Position numbers and translations under genes: made by a program. DNA of 64,000 nucleotides from Roseibaca calidilacus (lineage in GTDB: Bacteria > Pseudomonadota > Alphaproteobacteria > Rhodobacterales > Rhodobacteraceae). Location of the stretch: NCBI RefSeq assembly GCF_001517585.1, contig NZ_FBYC01000004.1, forward strand, positions 62,001 to 126,000. Reading direction: 5' to 3'. Shown in pieces: positions 7,717 to 60,097 of this stretch (position 1 is its first letter; every line of letters starts with the position of its first letter). The notes under the pieces were generated by a model. That model did not search any database and was not told where the DNA came from. It saw nothing but the letters and a program-made list of their open reading frames with translations.

Positions 7717-8469
7717 CTAGATACCGCCCCTTGCCGCACTGTTTTCCCTCATCGCTTCGATGCCCGTAAACAGTCGGTTTCGGGCAATCGGCTTTCTAAG
7801 CGTTGCGTCCCCAATCGCACGGCGATGATCTGAAAACTCGTCCTGCTGGACCGATCCCGAGAGCAGAAGGATGGGGATTTTGGGACAGGCTTTGCGAAAC
7901 GCGACAAGTTCGTCAACGCACTGATCAAGATCATCCGTTAGGTCGAGATCGAATATCAGAAAATCCCACTCTGGCGCGCAGGCGAGAACCGCTTTCAACA
8001 TCGCATCTGCATCTTGTGTCTGGTAGGCGGAATAGCCCTGTTGCGCCAGATCCACCGCGATTTGCCGAGACTGATTGCCCGCGCTTGCAATCAGGGCAAC
8101 GCAGGGAGGTGGATGTCCATCCTCGTTATCGGTGCATGCGGGCCATATTTTGCAATCCGGCAAATTGACGTCTTGTGTCAGCGTCGCCGTCTCGTGCGTT
8201 TTTGCAACGCCGGGTGACCTGCATAACCCAATCCCCAGCACACCCAAAAAAACTGCGAATTGAACCAGAATTGTTATAGGCACCGATTGAACAAGCGTAT
8301 ACCCAGACAGTAAGAAAACGGGCAGCACAATCAGCGCAGTGGGCCCGGTTAAAAGCACTGCGATGAATGCGAAATTTGGCCGCTTTTTTCCAGCCTCATG
8401 GTTTTTTGAAAAACCAGAGGTTGTGGTAGGTGCCAGATAGATCCGTTGGCTGTGCGGCATATGTGCCAT
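7717..8469 (-). CDS. Membrane-anchored protein with degenerate response-regulator receiver domain
   Basis: About 250 aa. Two hydrophobic segments (roughly residues 35-55 and 60-80) are followed by a receiver-like domain from about residue 120 to the end. The receiver has a candidate phosphoacceptor Asp in FLIFDLDLTDD, the hydrophobic strand ILLLSGS and the conserved Lys in LRKPIA. Its first strand reads VALIASAGNQ and lacks the acidic pair that binds Mg2+, so it may be a pseudo-receiver that is not phosphorylated. No histidine kinase is adjacent. The ATG at 8469 is preferred; a TTG three codons upstream (8478) is possible and neither has a clear ribosome binding site. The 260 bases upstream, to 8728, hold no gene I can support. 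Confidence 0.6.
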   Translation of the reverse strand: MAHMPHSQRIYLAPTTTSGFSKNHEAGKKRPNFAFIAVLLTGPTALIVLPVFLLSGYTLVQSVPITILVQFAVFLGVLGIGLCRSPGVAKTHETATLTQDVNLPDCKIWPACTDNEDGHPPPCVALIASAGNQSRQIAVDLAQQGYSAYQTQDADAMLKAVLACAPEWDFLIFDLDLTDDLDQCVDELVAFRKACPKIPILLLSGSVQQDEFSDHRRAIGDATLRKPIARNRLFTGIEAMRENSAARGGI

Positions 8470-51011: not shown

Positions 51012-51030
51012 AATGGCTCCGGCGGTAGGG
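51012..51030 (+). repeat. attL: 19-bp direct repeat of the tRNA-Asn end
   Basis: AATGGCTCCGGCGGTAGGG, identical to 60021-60039 inside tRNA-Asn; the flanking bases differ on both sides. The position, with the integrase beside the other copy, marks the left end of the island. An imperfect inverted copy (CCGGAGCCA at 51090-51098) lies 60 bases further in and may be an integrase accessory site. Confidence 0.92.
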
Positions 51031-51263
51031 TCCGCAGCAAATCCAAAAAATCCAATGATTTCAGGGGTTCGCCCTCTGCGTATGAACCCCCGGAGCCACA
51101 TTGTGAACAGTTACTTGATACAGTCAAGGGCACAAGCCCTATTGGCAAAGAGTTTTGTTATTGACCAATCCAGACTCCAAGACACTTTCCCTTGACAGTT
51201 GACACAGCAGGCGGTGTCAATCAGTCTAATTTGCTACCAAGTTTCTTTCAGGGTTGTGTTACA

Positions 51264-51524
51264 ATGGAAGTCCTATTTGCGATGTTAGTTGCAAAACTCT
51301 TCGGAGTTGCCGGTCTTGGAGGGCTTTTGTCTGGGCTTTTCATTCGCTCTTTGTCACTGGCACTGTGTAGCGGAACCATTGCGGGAGTTCTCGGGCAGGT
51401 TATTCTGATAAGCCTGCGAACCACGGGAGTTAGCCTAACAAGTTGGATTTTAGGTATTTTCGCAGGAGGTCTGATGGCATTTATTGGGTGGGTATTGCGT
51501 GGCAGGAAGATTGCGAAAGGATGA
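51264..51524 (+). CDS. Small membrane protein of the island
   Basis: 86-aa product from ATG 51264, almost entirely hydrophobic, with three likely membrane helices (LFAMLVAKLFGVAGLGGLL, LALCSGTIAGVLGQVILI, WILGIFAGGLMAFIGWVL) and a basic C-terminus (RGRKIAKG). A TTG at 51192 would add 24 residues but has no support. AT-rich relative to the chromosome. It is followed closely by two more small genes. I do not recognise a family. Confidence 0.55.
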   Translation: MEVLFAMLVAKLFGVAGLGGLLSGLFIRSLSLALCSGTIAGVLGQVILISLRTTGVSLTSWILGIFAGGLMAFIGWVLRGRKIAKG

Positions 51525-51528
51525 GACA

Positions 51529-51801
51529 ATGCGATGGCGTATTGAAGGCTTTGATGGCGCGGAGTCTGCGTTCTTTTCTGTTGAGGTGCCTTGCCATCAC
51601 TTAGGTGAAAAGCAAGTTGAAAAACTTCTATCCCATTTGGCTTCGCGACATCTATCAGCAAATGAAATTGTAAGAGCGTTACTTAGCAAAAGAGAAAGTA
51701 AGACAAGCATACTTGTAGTGACGAGAGAATATTGTGGTGGGAATTTGGTCCTGTGTTGTGGTGAGAGTCCCTTCTACTCTGCTAAGGTAATTTCTAAATA
51801 A
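51529..51801 (+). CDS. Hypothetical 90-aa protein of the island
   Basis: Soluble 90-aa protein starting MRWRIEGFDGAESAFFSVEVP, with a central helix (LGEKQVEKLLSHLASRHLSANEIVRALL) and a C-terminal strand-rich part (SILVVTREYCGGNLVLCC). GAAAGG lies upstream of the ATG. It starts 4 bases after the small membrane protein and is 27 bases from the next gene, so the three form an operon. No family recognised; AT-rich composition suggests transfer. Confidence 0.55.
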   Translation: MRWRIEGFDGAESAFFSVEVPCHHLGEKQVEKLLSHLASRHLSANEIVRALLSKRESKTSILVVTREYCGGNLVLCCGESPFYSAKVISK

Positions 51802-51828
51802 TTGATAAGGGTAAAGGGCGATGGCGAA

Positions 51829-52125
51829 ATGAAAGAATCACGACGGTCGGAAATAGATAGTGAAATCGAGAAACTGCGAGCAGATGTAGAATCGCACGCA
51901 GGCGGAAACTTCTGGATAGGTCTTGGAGCCATCGGCCTTGCCGCAACTGTCTTCGGACTTCAGGGTGATGATATGGTTGCGGGTTTCGGGCTTGCCGTTT
52001 CTTTTGGCATCTTAATTTATGGGTTTGTCGAAAAGGATAGAGTTAAAAAAGCCGAAGAAAAAATGAGGTTTTTACAAAAACAACTGGATTTTTTGAATTC
52101 CCACGAAAAATCAACAAAAGGATGA
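51829..52125 (+). CDS. Small protein with two membrane helices and coiled coil
   Basis: 98 aa. A charged N-terminal helix (RRSEIDSEIEKLRADVESH) is followed by two hydrophobic segments (FWIGLGAIGLAATVFGL and DDMVAGFGLAVSFGILIYGF) and a C-terminal amphipathic coiled coil (RVKKAEEKMRFLQKQLDFLN). Starts upstream of 51829 are TTG only. It is the third gene of an AT-rich operon. No family recognised; membrane-anchored coiled-coil proteins of this size occur in entry-exclusion and phage-defence cargo, but that is a guess. Confidence 0.5.
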   Translation: MKESRRSEIDSEIEKLRADVESHAGGNFWIGLGAIGLAATVFGLQGDDMVAGFGLAVSFGILIYGFVEKDRVKKAEEKMRFLQKQLDFLNSHEKSTKG

Positions 52126-52179
52126 CCAAACAGGAAATCCAATAACACTTTCCATAGAAAATCGGTGGCTATTATTCCG

Positions 52180-53046
52180 CTAGCACTTCTCTGCCTTGAT
52201 ATAGATGAAATCCACGGCCTTCTGTGCCTCGCTGGCGGCTTTGAAAATCGCCCGCTTGTCTTCTTTCAGGGCGGTCAACCAACCGTCGATGTACGCCCCG
52301 CTCTGGGCGAAGTCGGGCAACAGGCCAAGGGTGGCACAGAGCATACAGTTGCCAATCTCTGCGACCAGTTCTTCGAACGCATAGGCTTTGCGGTCGTTGA
52401 ACCGTTCGAACCGTGCCAAGCGGTGCTTTGCTCCCGTCCAGTGGGTCAGTTCGTGTGCCAAGGTGCCATAATAGCCTGCGGCCTCGTGGAAGGTCTCAAT
52501 CGGCGGCATATGGATTTGGTCTTTCTGAACATCGTAGAACGCCCGAGGTTCGGCGGTAGTGTTCAAGATCATTCCCGTTGCCGCAAAAAATGCGTCAAGG
52601 TCTGGGTCGGCTTCCGTGCCAAGGTTTTCGGCGGGGGCGGGGATGTCGTAATATTCGGCGGGCAACCCGTCTATCTGGTCGGCGTTGAATACCCGATAGC
52701 CCTTTGCGTAGGGAATCTTCTCTTCCTCGCCTTGTTCGTTCTCTCGTTCAATTGTGCCAAACTTCACCACCGTTGCCGATTTCTCGCCCTTGCGAACGCA
52801 ACCGCCCAACTCTTTCGCTTGCTTGAAGGTCAACCAGCGTGCCGATGTGTAGCCCTTGGCCGACGCAATCGACCACAGAACCAGAATGTTGATTCCCCGA
52901 TACGGCTCCCCGTTGTGTCGCAACGGTAGGCTTGTTCCCTTGCTGCTGCCTGTCCACGGTTTCCGCCACGGTGGGCAACCTGCTTCGATGGCCTCGATAA
53001 TCTGGGCCGTGATTTGCTCGTGAAGGTCGAAAGTCGCTTTTGTCAT
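52180..53046 (-). CDS. ArdC-like antirestriction protein (ssDNA-binding and zinc metallopeptidase domains)
   Basis: 288-aa ArdC family protein. The N-terminal ssDNA-binding domain (residues about 5-125) contains GCPPWRKPW, YRGINILVLW and WLTFKQAKELGG. The C-terminal zincin-like domain has HELTH at 198-202 in GTLAHELTHWTGAKHRL and a downstream Glu in FEELVAEIG. ArdC protects incoming DNA from type I restriction and shields single-stranded transfer DNA. It is transcribed from a long leader that contains a large inverted repeat at 53135-53190. The start at 53046 (MTKATFDLHEQIT) is the family start. Confidence 0.92.
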   Translation of the reverse strand: MTKATFDLHEQITAQIIEAIEAGCPPWRKPWTGSSKGTSLPLRHNGEPYRGINILVLWSIASAKGYTSARWLTFKQAKELGGCVRKGEKSATVVKFGTIERENEQGEEEKIPYAKGYRVFNADQIDGLPAEYYDIPAPAENLGTEADPDLDAFFAATGMILNTTAEPRAFYDVQKDQIHMPPIETFHEAAGYYGTLAHELTHWTGAKHRLARFERFNDRKAYAFEELVAEIGNCMLCATLGLLPDFAQSGAYIDGWLTALKEDKRAIFKAASEAQKAVDFIYIKAEKC

Positions 53047-53457
53047 TGGTCGCTCCGTGCTGTCTGGAAGAGCGATGTGAGGTCGTTTCCCAAAGGCCAA
53101 AGCCGGTTTCTCCCGCTTTCCGCCCTGGGCGGGGCTTCTCTGCTCTTCCCTTCGAAAAGCCCGTGATTTTCGGAGGGCAGAGCAGAGAGGGCATAGCCCG
53201 ACCTGCGGTTCGACGGGCACGGGGCAATGGGGTGGAAGCCGTGAAAACGGGAAGGAGCCGCCCGCCTGCGGGTGGAAGGAACCGGTTTTCTCGGGTGGAA
53301 CCGTCGCAAGGCGACGCTCGCCCATTGCTGCGGGCCTGTCGAACTGGCAGGCGGAACCCAAAAGAAGGATTGGCGTCAATGGCGTTGCGAGTGGGCACGC
53401 CCATCGAGCATTGCCATTGTCAACACGTAGACCTTGGCCGCGCCAGCGGTCTCAAAA
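53047..53457. other. Gene-free leader region upstream of ardC
   Basis: About 410 bases with no supported gene. It is GC-rich with several inverted repeats, the largest at 53135-53190. Long open frames cross it on both strands but their products are Arg/Pro-rich and look like shadows. It probably holds the ardC promoter and 5' leader. Confidence 0.5.
53135..53190. repeat. Large imperfect inverted repeat in the ardC leader
   Basis: Two 24-base arms (53135-53158 and 53167-53190) are complementary apart from two or three positions and enclose an 8-base loop. The outer part reads CTCTGCTCT against AGCAGAG. It would form a long hairpin in ardC mRNA or as single-stranded DNA. Elements that let ardC be expressed from single-stranded DNA on entry are known for antirestriction genes, so a single-strand promoter is one possible role. 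Confidence 0.6.
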
Positions 53458-53522
53458 AAATCGTGTTTTCTCGCTTGTGCTTTTCAGAAATGGTCCCACA
53501 TCTTTTTTGTCGCGACGACCGA

Positions 53523-53664
53523 CAGTTCCCCGCCCCCGCGGGGATGGCTTACCGCCGCATAGGCGGCTTCGAAACTTCCTGCCGCACAGGCAATGTCGTT
53601 GCTTCCCGCCGCACAGGCGGTCCAACTGGGCCCTGCTGGAACAATCAGTAGGGTCCAGTTTTTT
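53523..53664 (+). ncRNA. CRISPR-repeat-like small RNA, copy A (one I-E-like and three I-F-like hairpins)
   Basis: A candidate plus-strand RNA. First is a hairpin with stem CCCCGC/GCGGGG and a 4-base loop (53528-53543), flanked by AGTT and AT. This equals every non-loop position of the E. coli type I-E repeat core. It is followed by three abutting 27-base units (from 53549, 53576 and 53603), each with a 5-bp stem and loop GCATA or GCACA, as in type I-F repeats (CTGCC-GCACA-GGCAG). Unit 1 also keeps the I-F-like 3' tail CTTCGAAA. Unit 2 has T-A where units 1 and 3 have C-G, a compensatory change. A 13-bp terminator stem with six T follows (53626-53664). There are no spacers. No promoter could be fixed. 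Transcription and function are inferred. Confidence 0.65.
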
Positions 53665-53737
53665 ACTCGCGAACATCCGGCTCTCTGCGGTTATCGGTCC
53701 CCTGAAATATCGTTTCAGTTACGCTGGCCGATAGTCC
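53663..53737 (-). pseudogene. Relaxase 3'-end remnant
   Basis: In the minus frame this encodes 24 residues and a stop (GLSASVTETIF...DVRE). They align with the last 24 residues of the relaxase at 54903-55745 (GISVGVAEAMT...GVRE), with about half the positions identical. Similarity ends abruptly at 53737. It is the relic of a second, diverged relaxase gene, so copy A came from a related element rather than from a recent tandem duplication. Confidence 0.8.
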
Positions 53738-53880
53738 TGAAAGTGTTGGTGAGTTCTTGTTTTTTCTATAAAAAGCATTACTCTGTGGTCCGCAACCGAA
53801 CCTGTAAAAACGAGATGAGCGACGCTGCCATTATGCCGCCATTTGATAATATTTAGGTTGGATAGTTGAAGGAAGAAGAT

Positions 53881-54735
53881 ATGAACGATTCTTACCCCAA
53901 TAATACACTTGCCTCTTATATTTCAGATGAAAAAATCTCGCCAGTTTTTAGAAAAGGTTTACCTATTCCCTCGGAATATATTATCGAGATTGATACTCCA
54001 CTACAAAATCATTTTCTGCTTCCTTTGGGTGGGCCGTCTCATATCGAAAATAAGGTCTTCCCAACGCTTCTTCGGCTTATCGAGATTTCTCAAAATAATA
54101 GTCTGAACTTTTCAATAAAGAAATGCGAAAGGGTGAACATCAGTCACTTCTTCAAGTGGATAAACTTCGACGATGAGTTTTCAGACCTCTATTGTGAACT
54201 GGACATTAATTTTTCACAAGAGGAATCGGAATACAGTGAATATTTCTTTGTTTCTTGGTTTAGATTCACCGCCAGTATTCGTGTTGATAGATTTGACGGC
54301 GAGGAAGAATTTTTGTTAGACGCGTTCTCTGACGACTATAAGAGATACTCCAAGCGAAGCATTGAGAGTATCGTAAAAAAATATGTTCAATGCGTTGAGG
54401 CTTCCTGTAATCGACGAGATGTGAACGCCCCGATTCCTTGGCACAAGAACCTGCCACGAATAAAAGGTCTGGACTTCGATGATGTGTTAGAAATCAGTTA
54501 TTCATCAAGAGATGGAGATATTGTTGAGAAAGTTTGCGATGTGAGGGTCAGTCCATATTCACTGACACGACAGGGTAACACTGTGTCGCTTCGAAAAGGC
54601 GTCATTTCTTGGATATCCGGATACTCTTCTTCACGAGAGGAGTATATAAATATACCAGTGAGAGAAATCCGGAAAATAGTGATGCCAAAACGTAATATGA
54701 ATAATGTCTGGCCAATGACTTTGGAGTTGGCGTAG
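53881..54735 (+). CDS. Hypothetical 284-aa protein, AT-rich island cargo
   Basis: Soluble 284-aa protein starting MNDSYPNNTLASYISDEKI; AAGGAAGAAG precedes ATG 53881 (a TTG at 53866 is weaker). It is rich in aromatic and acidic residues (FFKWINFDDEFSDLYCELDINFSQEESEYSEYFF) with a charged helical segment (SDDYKRYSKRSIESIVKKYVQCVEAS) and a C-terminal strand-rich domain (VRVSPYSLTRQGNTVSLRKGVISWISGY). No signal peptide, membrane helix or recognisable motif. Codon use is far more AT-rich than its neighbours, and it sits between the two repeat-element copies, as cargo would. Function unknown; a defence or anti-defence role would fit the location. Confidence 0.7.
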   Translation: MNDSYPNNTLASYISDEKISPVFRKGLPIPSEYIIEIDTPLQNHFLLPLGGPSHIENKVFPTLLRLIEISQNNSLNFSIKKCERVNISHFFKWINFDDEFSDLYCELDINFSQEESEYSEYFFVSWFRFTASIRVDRFDGEEEFLLDAFSDDYKRYSKRSIESIVKKYVQCVEASCNRRDVNAPIPWHKNLPRIKGLDFDDVLEISYSSRDGDIVEKVCDVRVSPYSLTRQGNTVSLRKGVISWISGYSSSREEYINIPVREIRKIVMPKRNMNNVWPMTLELA

Positions 54736-54751
54736 GCGGTGGTGAACGATG

Positions 54752-54977
54752 AAATCGTGTTTGCGGCTTGTTTTTTCTGGAAACAAACCCACCTTTTCTT
54801 GTCGGGTGCGACCGACAGTTCCCCGCACAAGCGGGGATGGCTTACCGCCGCATAGGCGGTCCAACGGGACCCTGCTGGAACAATCAGTAGGGTCCAGTTT
54901 TTTCACTCTCGGACACCTCGTTCTCTTGGGTCGTCGGCCCCCCGAGTCATCGCTTCGGCAACGCCGACCGATATTCC
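54752..54977. repeat. Repeat element copy B (about 226 bp)
   Basis: Second copy of the element at 53458-53737. It contains the 5' AAATCGTGTTT block, the I-E-like and single I-F-like hairpins, the terminator, and then the intact 3' end of the relaxase gene. It differs from copy A by substitutions and by lacking two 27-base units. Confidence 0.85.
54816..54903 (+). ncRNA. CRISPR-repeat-like small RNA, copy B (one I-E-like and one I-F-like hairpin)
   Basis: Second candidate plus-strand RNA. The I-E-like hairpin is at 54821-54836 (stem CCCCGC/GCGGGG, loop ACAA) within CAGTTCCCCGC...GCGGGGATGG. One I-F-like hairpin CCGCCGCATAGGCGG follows at about 54845-54859, then a Rho-independent terminator (54867-54895) with six T. 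Loop bases differ from copy A while both stems are kept, which supports a conserved RNA structure. It is antisense to readthrough from the relaxase gene, and the terminator T-run touches the relaxase stop codon. Orientation matches that of repeats in real crRNA precursors. Transcription is inferred. Confidence 0.65.
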
Positions 54978-55745
54978 CAGGATGGCGTCCAGCACATTCT
55001 CCGCTTCGTCGTTTTCAAAAAGGCGCTTCAACGAGTCCGGAAATCCGCTGCTTTTGGCCTGTGCCCGTTTCTGCGGACTGTCGTGTTGGGTTGCCTGTCG
55101 TTTCAGGCCACGCTCTTTGAAACTCCGCCATTCGACCTCCGCTTCCCCGGATTCCTTTGCGGTCGTGTTCAAGATTGTCGCAATGCGACCCCGCCACCGT
55201 TTCGGTGCCCCCCTTTCGTTGAACCGTTGAACATTTTGTCGCCTGACACGCTGTGCCGCTGCCCGTTTGTCGGTGCGTCGTGCTGCGGCGTCTTTGCTCT
55301 CCACCCCGTCAACGGCCAGAAAGTGAAGATGAGCGTTGTGCGACTTGTCGATGTGCTGAATGACAATCGCCGACGCTTCTGACCCTTCCGGGGCCAGTTC
55401 TCGTGCCAGTCGTTCGACGGCAAGTCGCACGGTCTTCTCGCTCCAAGTATTCGGCAAGGACACAATCCCGGTCGTCGCAATCCGTCGCCCAACCTTGCCG
55501 CCTTTTGCCGCTTCTTCTCGGAATCGTCTGCGCAGGGCGAGGCGAGCCTCTTTCGGTGTGGTCGCTGGCTTTCCATCTGGGCGTCGAAGCCCGTGCCAAG
55601 AGATTATGCCGCTGGCATTCTCGCGGGCGATATAGTTCAAGGCTCCGTAGCACCGCTTCAATGGGTGGGCCTCTTCGCCCTTTCTCTGGCGGGCTGCGGG
55701 GCTTGTTGAAATGCCCCGAAACTTGGTGGTGAGTTCGAGCGTCAT
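54903..55745 (-). CDS. MobA/MobL-like relaxase
   Basis: 280-aa mobilization protein. Residues 131-142 (HIDKSHNAHLHF) form the three-histidine metal motif of relaxases (HxDxxxxHxH). Tyrosines at residues 33 and 38 (CYGALNYIAREN) are candidates for the nicking Tyr. The C-terminal part (about 150-240) is basic, with many Arg and Lys, suited to DNA binding. It is shorter than conjugative relaxases and lacks a primase or helicase domain, as in mobilizable elements. Immediately upstream lies an oriT-like inverted repeat (55795-55823). The catalytic Tyr is my inference. Confidence 0.75.
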   Translation of the reverse strand: MTLELTTKFRGISTSPAARQRKGEEAHPLKRCYGALNYIARENASGIISWHGLRRPDGKPATTPKEARLALRRRFREEAAKGGKVGRRIATTGIVSLPNTWSEKTVRLAVERLARELAPEGSEASAIVIQHIDKSHNAHLHFLAVDGVESKDAAARRTDKRAAAQRVRRQNVQRFNERGAPKRWRGRIATILNTTAKESGEAEVEWRSFKERGLKRQATQHDSPQKRAQAKSSGFPDSLKRLFENDEAENVLDAILGISVGVAEAMTRGADDPRERGVRE

Positions 55746-55780
55746 CGCTTATTCCTCCGTTTCCGGTGGAACACTTCCCG

Positions 55781-55838
55781 ACGCCTCCCGGCGTGAGGTT
55801 TAGGACCGAAGGGGCTAAACCTCCTTGTGCGTCTAAAC
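55781..55838. other. Putative origin of transfer (oriT)
   Basis: Between the divergent relaxase and 55928 genes. It has a 9-bp inverted repeat GAGGTTTAG / CTAAACCTC (55795-55803 and 55815-55823) with an 11-base spacer, then CTTGTGCGTCT. GTGCG after an inverted repeat is the layout of RSF1010/MobQ-type nic sites. A second small repeat ACGCC-TCCC-GGCGT (55781-55794) adjoins it. Position and layout support oriT; the nick site is not proven. Confidence 0.55.
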
Positions 55839-55927
55839 TCCACCAACCCTCTTAAAATATGTCGTTTTTTGTGTCACCCCAAAATCCTCCCTATTTGTTT
55901 TGAAAATCGACCGAAGGGGGATGTGAT

Positions 55928-56380
55928 ATGTGGTTTGAGAAAGAACTGGCGAAATACCAGAACGACACACGGGCGGCTTTGAGCCTGTTTCTGCCCCTGC
56001 CTGACGGGCACAGTCCAGTTCGTTTCGACGCATTGGCGAGGGCCGGAATGCTGACGGGCATTGCCCGTGATTGGGAAAACCAACTGCTGTCAGGAAGCCG
56101 ATTGCTGGCCGCGTCAGTGCCTTCGGGTGAAATGCCCGACACTATGCGACACGCCCGTCATCTTGTTCGTTGTGCGGGCCACCTCGGGACAAATATTCTC
56201 GACGCTCTTGACCCGACAACGCCCGAGGAGATTGCTCATCAAGTCAGAGAAGAGAGAGCACGCCTTGCGTTGCGGCGTGCTTTCGGTTTTCAAAGTCTAT
56301 TTCCAATCAATGTCAGAAAATCGCTTATTGGAGCGGGGCGGCAAAAGACCCGCCATGGTAATCCCGGTTTCAGGGCCTGA
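55928..56380 (+). CDS. Hypothetical 150-aa protein divergent from the relaxase
   Basis: 150-aa soluble protein, MWFEKELAKYQNDTRAALSLF, mostly helical, with a basic C-terminus (EERARLALRRAFG). Its place opposite the relaxase across the oriT-like region suggests a mobilization accessory protein, but I recognise no family. A terminator-like hairpin (AGCACGCC/GGCGTGCT at 56257-56281, then TTCGGTTTT) lies inside its 3' part. So either the frame is longer than the true gene or it ends by a frameshift there. The frame overlaps the repA end by 11 bases. Confidence 0.5.
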   Translation: MWFEKELAKYQNDTRAALSLFLPLPDGHSPVRFDALARAGMLTGIARDWENQLLSGSRLLAASVPSGEMPDTMRHARHLVRCAGHLGTNILDALDPTTPEEIAHQVREERARLALRRAFGFQSLFPINVRKSLIGAGRQKTRHGNPGFRA

Positions 56381-57509
56381 TTCTGACAGACCCGTCCTCT
56401 GCGACCTCGATACGCCTGTCGGCTTCAAGCGTTTCGCGGGCACGGGTGAGGGCTTTGCGAAGAGCGTCGGGTTTGGATTTCAACTCTTCGAATGGTCCGG
56501 ACACCTTGTCACGAATGCTGGCCCAAGCGTGCCATTTGCCGGGGTCGTTTGCGTCCAGCATTCCGAGGCAAGCGTAGAGATGGCTCGACCGCTCGTCGCC
56601 CGTCCTTCCGGTCTTTCTGGACATGGCGATGACCTGCTCGCCATCGGTGTCCCGGGGAAGGGCAAGCGGTAGGGTGATGGGGTCACCATCGGTATCGACA
56701 CCAATCTCAACGGCGGTGAGGTCAAAGAGAAGCGACTTGCCTTTGGGCATGCTTCGCTGTTTTGGTTGCTGAACCTCAATGACCTTCTCGCCGCTTTGGG
56801 TCTCGGCGGCATTCAAGGTCAGCAATGTGTCCACATTCCCGGTCATTGCGCTGGACCCTCGGGGCTTTCCCGGGTCGCTGTGGGTAGCGTGGTGAACAAT
56901 CATCACATGGACATTCTGGTTGCGGGCAAGCCGCTGGGCGTTGCTAATGGCTCGGCCCATATCCCGAGATGAGTTTTCGTCACCGTCACCAAGGCACAGG
57001 TTGAGCGTGTCGAAGACCAAAAAGAGCCGTTCGGCGTCTATGGCCTTCATGTAGTCACCCAAGGCTTTGCCGAAGACATCCATCTCCTGTGCGTCGGTCA
57101 AATCGACCGAGTGGGGATAGACGTTGAAGGGCAATCCATCGTCTCGCATATCCCGTAGAACTGCGGAGCCTCGCTCGACAACGCCGTAGGGGTCTTCCGC
57201 TGCGACATAGAGCGTGGCGGCTTTCGCAACCTGCCGTCCCCCGAGCGAATCACCATGTGCCGCATGGCCTGCGATGGACGCAATAAGGGATGTTTTTCCC
57301 GTGTTGGGTGGGCCTGCCAACATGCTGACTTGCCCGAAAAGGAGCAAGTTTTTGACGAGATATTCCCGTGGGGCGAGTGACATCATGCCGGTGATGGAGA
57401 GGAGTTCTCGCCCCAGAAACATAGTCGCTTTTTTCTGACGCTCGGTGGATTCTTGTGATGTTTCATCAACAATCTCAATGAGTTCGTTCGTTGTGATTTG
57501 ACCTTTCAT
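56370..57509 (-). CDS. RepA-like hexameric helicase (AAA ATPase)
   Basis: 379-aa RecA-fold ATPase of the plasmid RepA/AAA_25 group. Walker A is GPPNTGKTS (66-74), Walker B LFLVFDTLN, followed by the sensor segment NVHVMIVHHATHSDPGKPRGSSAM. The C-terminal 70 residues (ERSSHLYACLGMLD...ALTRARETLEADRRIEV) form a winged-helix-like domain. An AAGGA site precedes ATG 57509; a GTG at 57530 is a weaker start. It likely drives replication of the excised element, and a long palindrome lies directly upstream at 57617-57679. Confidence 0.85.
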   Translation of the reverse strand: MKGQITTNELIEIVDETSQESTERQKKATMFLGRELLSITGMMSLAPREYLVKNLLLFGQVSMLAGPPNTGKTSLIASIAGHAAHGDSLGGRQVAKAATLYVAAEDPYGVVERGSAVLRDMRDDGLPFNVYPHSVDLTDAQEMDVFGKALGDYMKAIDAERLFLVFDTLNLCLGDGDENSSRDMGRAISNAQRLARNQNVHVMIVHHATHSDPGKPRGSSAMTGNVDTLLTLNAAETQSGEKVIEVQQPKQRSMPKGKSLLFDLTAVEIGVDTDGDPITLPLALPRDTDGEQVIAMSRKTGRTGDERSSHLYACLGMLDANDPGKWHAWASIRDKVSGPFEELKSKPDALRKALTRARETLEADRRIEVAEDGSVRIRP

Positions 57510-57592
57510 GTCAGTTTCCTTCTTGTTCACACCGGCGTGATTGCCGATGGCTTTCGAGACATGTTGCCACCCCGAAACTCGTCAAGTGGCCA

Positions 57593-57679
57593 TCAAGAAA
57601 AAAAACTTGACAAACCGGAAAAAACTAACGGACGGACGGACGCCCCTTTAGGGGGGCGTCCGTCCGTCCGGTTTTTTCC
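57593..57679. terminator. Long palindrome: bidirectional terminator or replication origin
   Basis: An 18-bp perfect stem made of tandem GGAC units (57629-57646 with 57653-57670) is extended by a second 9-bp stem GGAAAAAAC/GTTTTTTCC (57617-57625, 57671-57679), leaving a TAA bulge. Runs of T follow the GC stem on both strands, so it can end transcription in both directions, including from the integrase gene. Just before it is an A-tract palindrome TCAAG-A8-CTTGA (57593-57610). Placed in front of repA, the same region could serve as the element's replication origin. Confidence 0.7.
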
Positions 57680-57711
57680 ACACGATGTGGCCAGATAAAG
57701 GCTTGGAATTG

Positions 57712-59898
57712 TTAGGTGGTCCGAGAGGCTACGACTTTCAAGCGGAGCGAGCGGTTGGCAAGCGCGCGACCGAAGGGCGGATTGATATTGCTGTGGTCGA
57801 TATCAATGCGGTCGATGTATTCTTTGAGGCTTGCCATCGTTTCGCCCGCTCGGAAATAGTGCTCATGGGTCACATCGGCCTGTTCGTGGCCCATAAGGCC
57901 CCGCCGCACGTGGTCGGGCACCCTTTGTCGTGTCAGGCGGGTCTGGAACTCTGTCCGAAGTGCGTGGAAGTCCTGTGCGGGTGCGTAAAGCCCTCTGGAC
58001 TGACGGTAATGATGAAACCGCTTGCTCATTATGCCGCTCAACGTGTTGTTGGACTTCGAGCGGGGCAGGTCAGGAAAGAGGCGGCTCGATTTCGATTGCC
58101 TGCGCAGAGACACCAGTTTTGGCAAGTCGAGGTCAATCAGGGCTTTGTGAAGCGGAATCTTGCGGATTGCGTTCTCTGATTTGTAGGTTTGAGAGCCGAT
58201 TTCGTTCTGGACAGCGATGTAGGGAATCCCGTCTTCACGAAGGAAGTCATTGACACGAAGTTGGCATATCTCTTCCAGACGCAAGCCCGCATAAACGGCA
58301 ATCAGGGGTGCCCAGAACAAAGGTTCACCGACATCTTCCAAAGTCTCTTGATAAATCGGTGATTTGAACAGGGCATAGATGTTGTCACCCCAACCTTTGC
58401 GTTCAATCCGGCGTTCGCTGCGTTTGCGACGTTTGACTTCTGCGTCTGTCAGGACACGACCTTTGAACGGGTTTGTTTCGACATATCGGCACGCAAAAGC
58501 ATATTCGAACATTGCTCGGAGTGCCGTTTGGTGCCGTTGAACTGTTGTCGCTGAAATCCGTTGGATGAGGGCTTCTGCAACCTTGTCCTCAATGTCGCCG
58601 GGTGCCATCCCCTTCTCGGCAAGTTTGTCAGGCAACTCGGTCTCAATCACTGCGTCCTGTTCGTCGGCGTCCTCAATCACCTGCCGCGCAGGGCGTTGGT
58701 CTTGGGACGACTTCCCGTGGTGCTTGGGAAGGCGTTGAATGAGGTCATTGAACTCCAAGACTTCATCCCGGCCAATCTCGCCGATGGGAAGGTCGCCGAT
58801 GAGGTCGATGAACAACTTGATGGTGGATCGATAGTTGGCGAGTGAGGACCGTATGAACTTCTTGCCTGAATCGGGATGCGGGGTTTCGTCTTGCCGCCGC
58901 AAGGTATAGCCCTCGCTGCGGAGTTTCAGGTAGGTTTCGGCGAACTTGGACAAAGGCTCCTGATTGTAAACTGGTTGACCCGGTGCTGTCGTGCCTTGGG
59001 GCGTCTGTTCTGGCGTGTGCCCAAGCCGCAAGGCTGTTTCAAACAGGCTCTTGGCAATACGCTCTGCTCCGGGGAAAGCCGTTTTGAGCGGGCGGCTCTC
59101 TCGTTCACAGGTTTCAAGCAACTGCTTTATGACACGCTCGACGGCGTCGACGGTTTCTTCGAGGTGAATGGTTTGCGTGCTGTCGTCAGTCACACCCGTT
59201 GCGGCGTCATCCGTGCCGCCTTTATTTTGAGCGACCAGCGGGACTATCTCTACTTGCGGGGCGGGAAGGTGTGGCCTGCCGTCTTCTCCCGGCCCGAACT
59301 CTTCTATGTATTCCAAGTATTCTTGGTAGAGACGGTCGCTTTCCTGTTGTAAGGCGTGTTCCTCTGGGAACATATCCTTGTAGACGAGGTCATCAACTTC
59401 ATACGTAATGCCCAGAATCGGGGCCGGTAGCGTTCGGTTGAACAGGTCCGGAAACATACTCGGTGCGATACCCAGAGACTGCCGGAGTTCGGCGTCAACA
59501 CGGGCAAAGGCTTTTTCCCTGACCTGTGGGGAGAGACGTGCGACCTCTGTCGCCCTGTAATGTCCAATGAGTTGCCGAGCGTTGGCGGCAAGGGTTTCGG
59601 CCAGACTTTCTATCAAATCCTGTTGTGGTCGTTCGTCCATTTGAGAAATGCTCTGCTCGTATTTCGCCCATTCAAGTTCAAACAACGTTCCGAGTCTTGC
59701 GGCCAAAATGCGGGCTTCGCGAGCCGATGTGGTGCCAAGACTGACGGACAGATGTCCCTTGGCCTGAAATGTGCTTCGCCTGGGGCCGTTTTCTATTCGG
59801 AAATCATGGCCTTGGGCCATGTCGATGACGATAGCGGGGTGGCGGCGGCGATACCACCAGATTTTGCCTCGTTTTGTAAGATAGGCAATGCGTCCCAT
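57712..59898 (-). CDS. Tyrosine-recombinase integrase of the island
   Basis: 728-aa integrase, much longer than the usual 400 because of an extended N-terminus (residues about 60-330) of unknown function. It begins MGRIAYLTKRGKIWWYRRRHP, typical of the DUF6538-type integrase start. A SAM-like core-binding domain follows (about 350-540). The catalytic domain has Arg in YAGLRLEEICQLR, His645 and Arg648 in HALR, His671 in MGHEQAD and the nucleophile Tyr681 in THEHYF. GGAG lies eight bases before ATG 59898. It lies next to tRNA-Asn, the attachment site, and transcription ends at the 57.6-kb palindrome. Confidence 0.93.
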   Translation of the reverse strand: MGRIAYLTKRGKIWWYRRRHPAIVIDMAQGHDFRIENGPRRSTFQAKGHLSVSLGTTSAREARILAARLGTLFELEWAKYEQSISQMDERPQQDLIESLAETLAANARQLIGHYRATEVARLSPQVREKAFARVDAELRQSLGIAPSMFPDLFNRTLPAPILGITYEVDDLVYKDMFPEEHALQQESDRLYQEYLEYIEEFGPGEDGRPHLPAPQVEIVPLVAQNKGGTDDAATGVTDDSTQTIHLEETVDAVERVIKQLLETCERESRPLKTAFPGAERIAKSLFETALRLGHTPEQTPQGTTAPGQPVYNQEPLSKFAETYLKLRSEGYTLRRQDETPHPDSGKKFIRSSLANYRSTIKLFIDLIGDLPIGEIGRDEVLEFNDLIQRLPKHHGKSSQDQRPARQVIEDADEQDAVIETELPDKLAEKGMAPGDIEDKVAEALIQRISATTVQRHQTALRAMFEYAFACRYVETNPFKGRVLTDAEVKRRKRSERRIERKGWGDNIYALFKSPIYQETLEDVGEPLFWAPLIAVYAGLRLEEICQLRVNDFLREDGIPYIAVQNEIGSQTYKSENAIRKIPLHKALIDLDLPKLVSLRRQSKSSRLFPDLPRSKSNNTLSGIMSKRFHHYRQSRGLYAPAQDFHALRTEFQTRLTRQRVPDHVRRGLMGHEQADVTHEHYFRAGETMASLKEYIDRIDIDHSNINPPFGRALANRSLRLKVVASRTT

Positions 59899-60020
59899 GT
59901 CGCGGCTCCGGAGCATTGTGCGCAGCAAAAAGCCACGCCATTGGGCACAGAGGGCAAGACAGGCGGGAACGGCACAGGGCAAAAGCCCTAAACCATTATT
60001 TCCATTGATATTTTTTAGAA

Positions 60021-60039
60021 AATGGCTCCGGCGGTAGGG
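60021..60039 (+). repeat. attR: 19-bp direct repeat within tRNA-Asn
   Basis: Identical to 51012-51030. It covers the encoded CCA end and the acceptor/T-arm side of tRNA-Asn, so integration leaves the tRNA gene intact. It marks the right end of the island. Confidence 0.92.
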
Positions 60040-60097
60040 ATCGAACCTACGACCAATTGATTAACAGTCAACTGCTCTACCGCTGAGCTACGCCGGA
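60023..60097 (-). tRNA. tRNA-Asn (anticodon GTT)
   Basis: Reading the minus strand from 60097 gives a complete cloverleaf: acceptor TCCGGCG, D-arm with AGCTCAGCGGTAGAGC, anticodon loop CTGTTAA (anticodon GTT), T-arm with GGTTCGATCC, acceptor CGCCGGA, discriminator G and encoded CCA (60023-60025). It serves as the attachment site of the adjoining island. Confidence 0.97.

Follow-up and report, generated by a model that had tools for sequence, protein, structure and literature searches.

What do two short, closely similar plus-strand loci encode when each joins sequences that resemble the repeats of two different CRISPR subtypes? The window analysed here, a stretch of 64,000 nucleotides from the 3.35-Mb genome of Roseibaca calidilacus, contains both loci, which we call copies A and B, inside an integrative mobilizable element (IME; Table 1). 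From their sequence and predicted structure, it is probable that each locus produces a composite RNA anti-CRISPR, that is, a Racr-like decoy that would bind both Cas6e and Cas6f.

At its two ends, 51012-51030 and 60021-60039, the element has a 19-bp direct repeat (AATGGCTCCGGCGGTAGGG); the second copy lies at the tRNA-Asn gene (60023-60097), the 3' end of which is contained in the repeat. The element encodes a tyrosine integrase, an AAA ATPase, a MobA/MobL relaxase and the antirestriction protein ArdC, and as a whole it was not found in the other sampled genomes of the genus. For the relaxase, the searches gave a single relative (41%), which comes without the RNA, and none in plasmids or IMG/VR. 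A second, decayed version of its 3' end follows copy A: 53665-53738 and 54905-54977 are 69% identical, and the open frame has been lost. The A/T-rich 284-aa ORF that separates the copies (53881-54735) is possibly a cargo gene or an anti-defence gene; family searches placed it in no recognised family and in no toxin family, its predicted structure (pLDDT 31) gives an unusable fold, and no relatives were found in plasmids or IMG/VR. Upstream of the relaxase gene, an inverted repeat can be seen by eye at about 55797-55826 (AGGTTTAG...CTAAACCT), followed by TTGTGCGTC up to 55835. This arrangement presumably resembles MobQ-type oriT sites, and we regard 55797-55835 as a probable candidate, by its sequence, for the oriT of the IME.

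Table 1. Features of the element and of its two RNA loci, in window coordinates.
Feature	Positions	Strand	Basis
Integrative mobilizable element (IME), 9 kb	51012-60039		bounded by 19-bp direct repeat
ArdC antirestriction gene, adjoining RNA copy A	52180-53379	-	Pfam PF08401 (6.2e-39), PF18818 (3e-45)
Possible promoter of copy A, TTGTGC-17-ACATCT	53475-53503	+	inferred by eye and from copy alignment
Predicted transcript of copy A, with an I-E unit, three I-F-like hairpins and a terminator	53512-53665	+	folding, alignment, terminator
Copy A, R1: mimic of a type I-E repeat with stem TCCCCGC/GCGGGGA and loop CCCC	53523-53554	+	pattern, family repeats
Copy A, R2: mimic of a type I-F repeat with C6-G20 stem and handle CUUCGAAA	53547-53574	+	Rfam CRISPR-DR4
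Copy A, R3: I-F-like hairpin CTGCC-GCACA-GGCAA, without closing G20	53574-53601	+	hairpin pattern
Copy A, R4: I-F-like hairpin CCGCC-GCACA-GGCGG	53601-53628	+	hairpin pattern
Intrinsic terminator of copy A	53624-53665	+	stem then T run
Decayed duplicate of relaxase 3' end, downstream of copy A	53665-53738	-	alignment
284-aa ORF, between RNA copies A and B	53881-54735	+	no family assignment
Predicted transcript of copy B, with an I-E unit, one I-F-like hairpin and a terminator	54806-54902	+	folding, alignment, terminator
Copy B, R1: mimic of a type I-E repeat with loop ACAA	54816-54847	+	pattern, family repeats
Copy B, R2: I-F-like hairpin CCGCC-GCATA-GGCGG with tail UCCAACGG	54840-54867	+	hairpin pattern, alignment
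Intrinsic terminator of copy B, convergent with relaxase gene	54867-54902	+	stem then T run
MobA/MobL relaxase gene	54903-55745	-	PF03389 (1.3e-07)

The 5' unit of each RNA mimics a type I-E repeat. A sequence-only reading had claimed exact I-E-type cores at two plus-strand loci, and the pattern AGTTCCCCGC-N4-GCGGGGAT does occur at exactly two sites, 53524-53545 and 54817-54838, where 0.12 sites would be expected by chance even with up to three mismatches allowed. A BLAST search with copy B in 395 genomes of the family leads to real CRISPR arrays with a period of 61 and the repeat CTGTTCCCCGCACACGCGGGGATGAACCG or close forms of it. The best family repeat (GACAGTTCCCCGCACACGCGGGGATGAACCG) agrees with copy B in 25 of 26 bases (GACAGTTCCCCGCACAAGCGGGGATG versus GACAGTTCCCCGCACACGCGGGGATG). 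The named relatives found through repeats of either subtype, Paracoccus and Sulfitobacter, together with the gene content, point to a place in or near Rhodobacteraceae. Compared with a true I-E repeat, R1 has three extra bases in its 3' part and ends in ATGGCTTACCG instead of the ATGAACCG of the family repeats, a deviation located where the next unit starts.

The units that follow belong to the other subtype. The hairpins of the form YYGCC-GCAYA-GGCRR that had been described after the I-E cores are present: CCGCC-GCATA-GGCGG starts at 53552 and 54845, CTGCC-GCACA-GGCAA at 53579 and CCGCC-GCACA-GGCGG at 53606. With one mismatch allowed, the window contains seven I-F-type hairpins (0.71 expected; none of 100 shuffles reaches seven), and four of these seven sites fall within the two RNA loci. 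R2 of copy A goes beyond the hairpin, being a full 28-nt I-F repeat with its 3' handle (GCTTACCGCCGCATAGGCGGCTTCGAAA). The search with repeat models that had been suggested as a check finds it too: Rfam CRISPR-DR4, which we take to be the type I-F repeat, with a model consensus equal to that repeat, covers all 28 positions of 53547-53574 with 27.7 bits, below the gathering score of 35, and an E-value of 0.0016 for a 1.5-kb search against all 4227 Rfam families. R2 is identical to the CRISPR-DR4 consensus at 22 of 28 positions, two of the six differences forming one compensatory pair change, and random hairpins with 5-bp stems and 5-nt loops would each reach at least 22 identities with a probability of about 2e-7. 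Its agreement rises to 24/28 with the repeat of an Acetobacter plasmid array that lies beside cas1f/cas3f, and to 26/28 with the I-F repeat of a four-repeat mini-array in an IMG/VR prophage, although this last closeness was selected for, because the search pattern was derived from R2. In R3, R4 and the copy B unit the I-F likeness is confined to the hairpin, and copy B lacks the I-F handle. Across the I-F units of the IME and of plasmids, compensatory stem changes occupy 8 cells, as against 2.3 in shuffles, and the C6-G20 pair, in which G20 closes the Cas6f stem, is broken only in R3; the other three IME hairpins keep it. The mimicry extends, for both I-E and I-F repeats, to sequence and structure alike.

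The arrangement of these units differs from that of a CRISPR array. Copy A consists of four repeat units and copy B of two, and, as had been claimed, neither locus contains spacers: units abut or overlap, and the three I-F-like units of copy A follow each other at a 27-nt period instead of being set apart by regular spacers. The claim that cas genes are lacking also held, inasmuch as Cas1, Cas6e, Csy3 and Csy4 have no match in the genome. These observations bear on the idea of a crRNA-like guide, of the CreA or mini-array type, which would steer host Cascade to a promoter. The repeat-like units are of host type, as such a guide would have them, but the abutting units provide no spacer or guide segment, and the search for complementarity of at least 11 nt within the element gave a single 13-nt GC-rich match, inside the ArdC gene, that is, nothing like a target. 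Together with the missing Cas1 and Cas6e, this makes a guide function very improbable.

Copies A and B are paralogues, and the comparison between them delimits the RNA. They are identical at 90 of 95 positions of the predicted RNA (95%) and at only 90 of 127 positions of the flanks (71%; Fisher P 3.7e-6), the drop coinciding with the predicted RNA ends. Within its first 50 nt the copies differ at three positions, each of them in the I-E loop; the terminator shows two differences, one of which preserves pairing. Gene conversion limited to the RNA stretch could have kept the copies alike. The single I-F-like unit of copy B shares its 5' part with R2 and its 3' part with R4 of copy A, and by sequence it looks like a recombinant of the two. 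Both RNAs fold better than each of 200 shuffles (z -5.6 and -4.7), and the terminators that had been proposed, a stem followed by a T run, are found at both loci. As for the start of transcription, the site scan detects no sigma-70 consensus promoter at either locus; the candidate element of copy B, TTGTTT-17-ACCTTT, has the same spacing as that of copy A.

Such a pattern also helps to judge whether the loci might be without function, as a fossil of host CRISPR arrays or a product of their recombination. Members of the family do have repeats of this sequence, and recombination could bring them into a mobile element; on the other hand, two subtypes are joined here free of spacers, each copy has its own terminator, the differences between copies avoid the stems and conservation stops at the RNA ends. 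We consider this origin improbable. To a regulatory or structural RNA of the element, with a role in the control of conjugation, as a terminator convergent with the relaxase gene or as a type III antitoxin for the 284-aa ORF, and with a CRISPR likeness due to chance, we likewise give little credence. Its attraction is that copy B and the relaxase gene converge and that, at copy A, tandem hairpins and a terminator stand before an ORF without a known family. However, two independent CRISPR repeat matches occur in one short RNA, no Rfam family reaches its gathering threshold, and complementarity of at least 11 nt within the element is limited to the 13-nt match in the ArdC gene. A ToxIN-like type III system is further disfavoured by the lack of a ToxN-family match for the ORF and by the absence of a co-directional gene after copy B.

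If the loci are decoys, as we favour, their hosts should possess the corresponding Cas proteins. For the I-E arm suitable hosts are at hand: Cas6e was detected in 19 of 198 family genomes (10 above the curated cut-off), and an I-E decoy function is, from these sequence matches, likely. Csy3 was absent from 198 family genomes and Csy4 from 395, with one Csy4 match in 385 Alphaproteobacteria, which leaves the I-F arm with few evident targets nearby. For a dual function the chances are about even. We also considered that divergent Cas6e-like proteins of the family might use an I-F-like hairpin, and rejected it, as their arrays, where found, have GGTTCCCCCG-type I-E repeats. The scarcity of I-F Cas proteins in the family counts most against the two-subtype claim: of the decoy originally proposed for two subtypes, the mimicry of both repeat types stands, whereas its I-F side is weakened by the few targets and by the handle missing from copy B. 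A plain I-E Racr, in which only the I-E part works and the I-F-like hairpins are stabilisers or relics of an earlier I-F host, would accommodate a family where I-E is common and I-F absent or very rare, as well as the reduction of copy B to one hairpin and the loss of G20 in R3. It leaves aside the full I-F repeat and handle of R2, the C6-G20 pair kept in three of the four hairpins and the plasmids of Acetobacter and Sulfitobacter that carry I-F arrays or runs of I-F-like repeats, and we hold it to be rather unlikely. The I-F arm is nonetheless weaker on host range, although I-F repeats and candidate I-F decoys do occur on alphaproteobacterial plasmids.

The composite decoy that we favour can be placed among known systems. 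RNA anti-CRISPRs (Racrs), including RacrIF1 and RacrIE candidates, have been described (Camara-Wilpert 2023, PMC10651486), and RacrIF1 binds Cas6f and Cas7f, leading to an aberrant subcomplex (PMC10651486). Like a Racr, the IME RNA is a small, spacer-less repeat mimic on a mobile element, with no cas genes linked to it by genome match search and with the features of the Cas6 hairpin kept. Each published Racr is a solitary repeat unit from a single subtype, and the search pipeline dropped matches beside other repeats (PMC10651486); the IME RNA, in contrast, fuses I-E and I-F units, has up to three I-F-like hairpins and exists in two copies, and its neighbouring repeat units mean that it is not a strict solitary repeat unit. 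That a tandem I-E and I-F mimic is undescribed agrees with the main texts of open-licence papers, in which no two-subtype Racr was found. The nearest functional parallel is AcrIE4-F7 (PMC8887544), which also combines an anti-I-E and an anti-I-F part in one molecule, but is a fused protein that blocks PAM recognition sites and not a repeat mimic made of RNA. The CRISPR mini-arrays of viruses (reviewed in PMC11656645) resemble the IME loci in that mobile elements lacking cas genes carry host-like repeats, and differ from them by their spacers. With genuine type I-E and I-F repeats the units share the stem, the loop length and, for R2, the handle; unlike these, they come with no array, no leader and no cas genes in the genome.

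Homologues in other mobile elements, for which a search had been suggested, did not appear: with the patterns used, neither the GTDB species genomes nor IMG/VR, the latter scanned for either unit order, yielded a second I-E plus I-F composite, and consequently there is no independent conservation of the composite. Eleven GTDB matches turned out to be I-E arrays with a chance GCCGYRYAGGC within a spacer, and the IMG/VR matches to tandem I-F hairpins were only GC-rich repetitive stretches. A match in Streptomyces phage Eklok (2378-2680 of locus L039), in the interval of genes 53-54, is a degenerate run of I-E-like repeats with no cas genes in the annotated stretch; being a separate run, it was discarded as a relative of the composite.

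Repeats of the I-F type were seen on several plasmids. The Sulfitobacter sp. OXR-159 plasmid NZ_CP139710.1 (L098, 13339-14760) carries about 18 clustered I-F-like hairpins, some with exact I-F handles, in a higher-order tandem with 94/77/74-nt spacing and with intervening sequences that are repeated rather than unique; no cas genes are annotated within 14 kb, and a further copy lies near 7823. Sulfitobacter belongs to the Rhodobacterales, and I-F repeat-like sequences therefore circulate on mobile elements of this order. On the Shewanella baltica conjugative plasmid NZ_CP146611.1 (L102, 2306-2690), eight I-F-like repeats are spaced at 42-49 nt, versus 60 in true arrays, with compensatory stem changes, a terminator at the end and no annotated cas genes nearby; this locus is a candidate multi-repeat I-F decoy RNA. 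Both plasmid loci are candidates for multi-hairpin I-F decoys similar to the IME RNA. The Moraxella lincolnii plasmid NZ_CP147512.1 (L101, 1502-1532) has a single I-F repeat (TTTACCGCCACATAGGCGGCTTAGAAA) just 5' of a type IV secretion gene, a candidate Racr.

An anti-CRISPR RNA would agree with the location in a mobile element beside ArdC, with the absence of the Cas genes searched for and with conservation that does not reach beyond the RNA, and a sequence of events can be proposed: transcription, Cas6 binding, formation of aberrant complexes and loss of interference. The 5' hairpin, as a copy of the I-E repeat, would be bound and probably cut by Cas6e, and the adjoining I-F-type hairpins would be bound by Cas6f. 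A complex formed on the RNA, with Cas6 and perhaps Cas7, would be unable to target DNA because the RNA is free of spacers. By analogy with RacrIF1, each RNA may occupy Cas6e and, where present, Cas6f, and so titrate Cas proteins off real crRNAs as the mobile element becomes established.

All together, we tentatively propose, at chances somewhat short of even, a general model in which one small RNA inhibits two CRISPR-Cas subtypes through joined mimics for Cas6e and Cas6f, the number of units changing by recombination. Such inhibitors would be multivalent and carried by elements mobilised by conjugation, and the multi-hairpin decoys of plasmids would be their relatives. If composite and multi-repeat decoys work, plasmids and IMEs harbour an overlooked class of RNA inhibitors, and a single short RNA could silence I-E and I-F systems at the same time.
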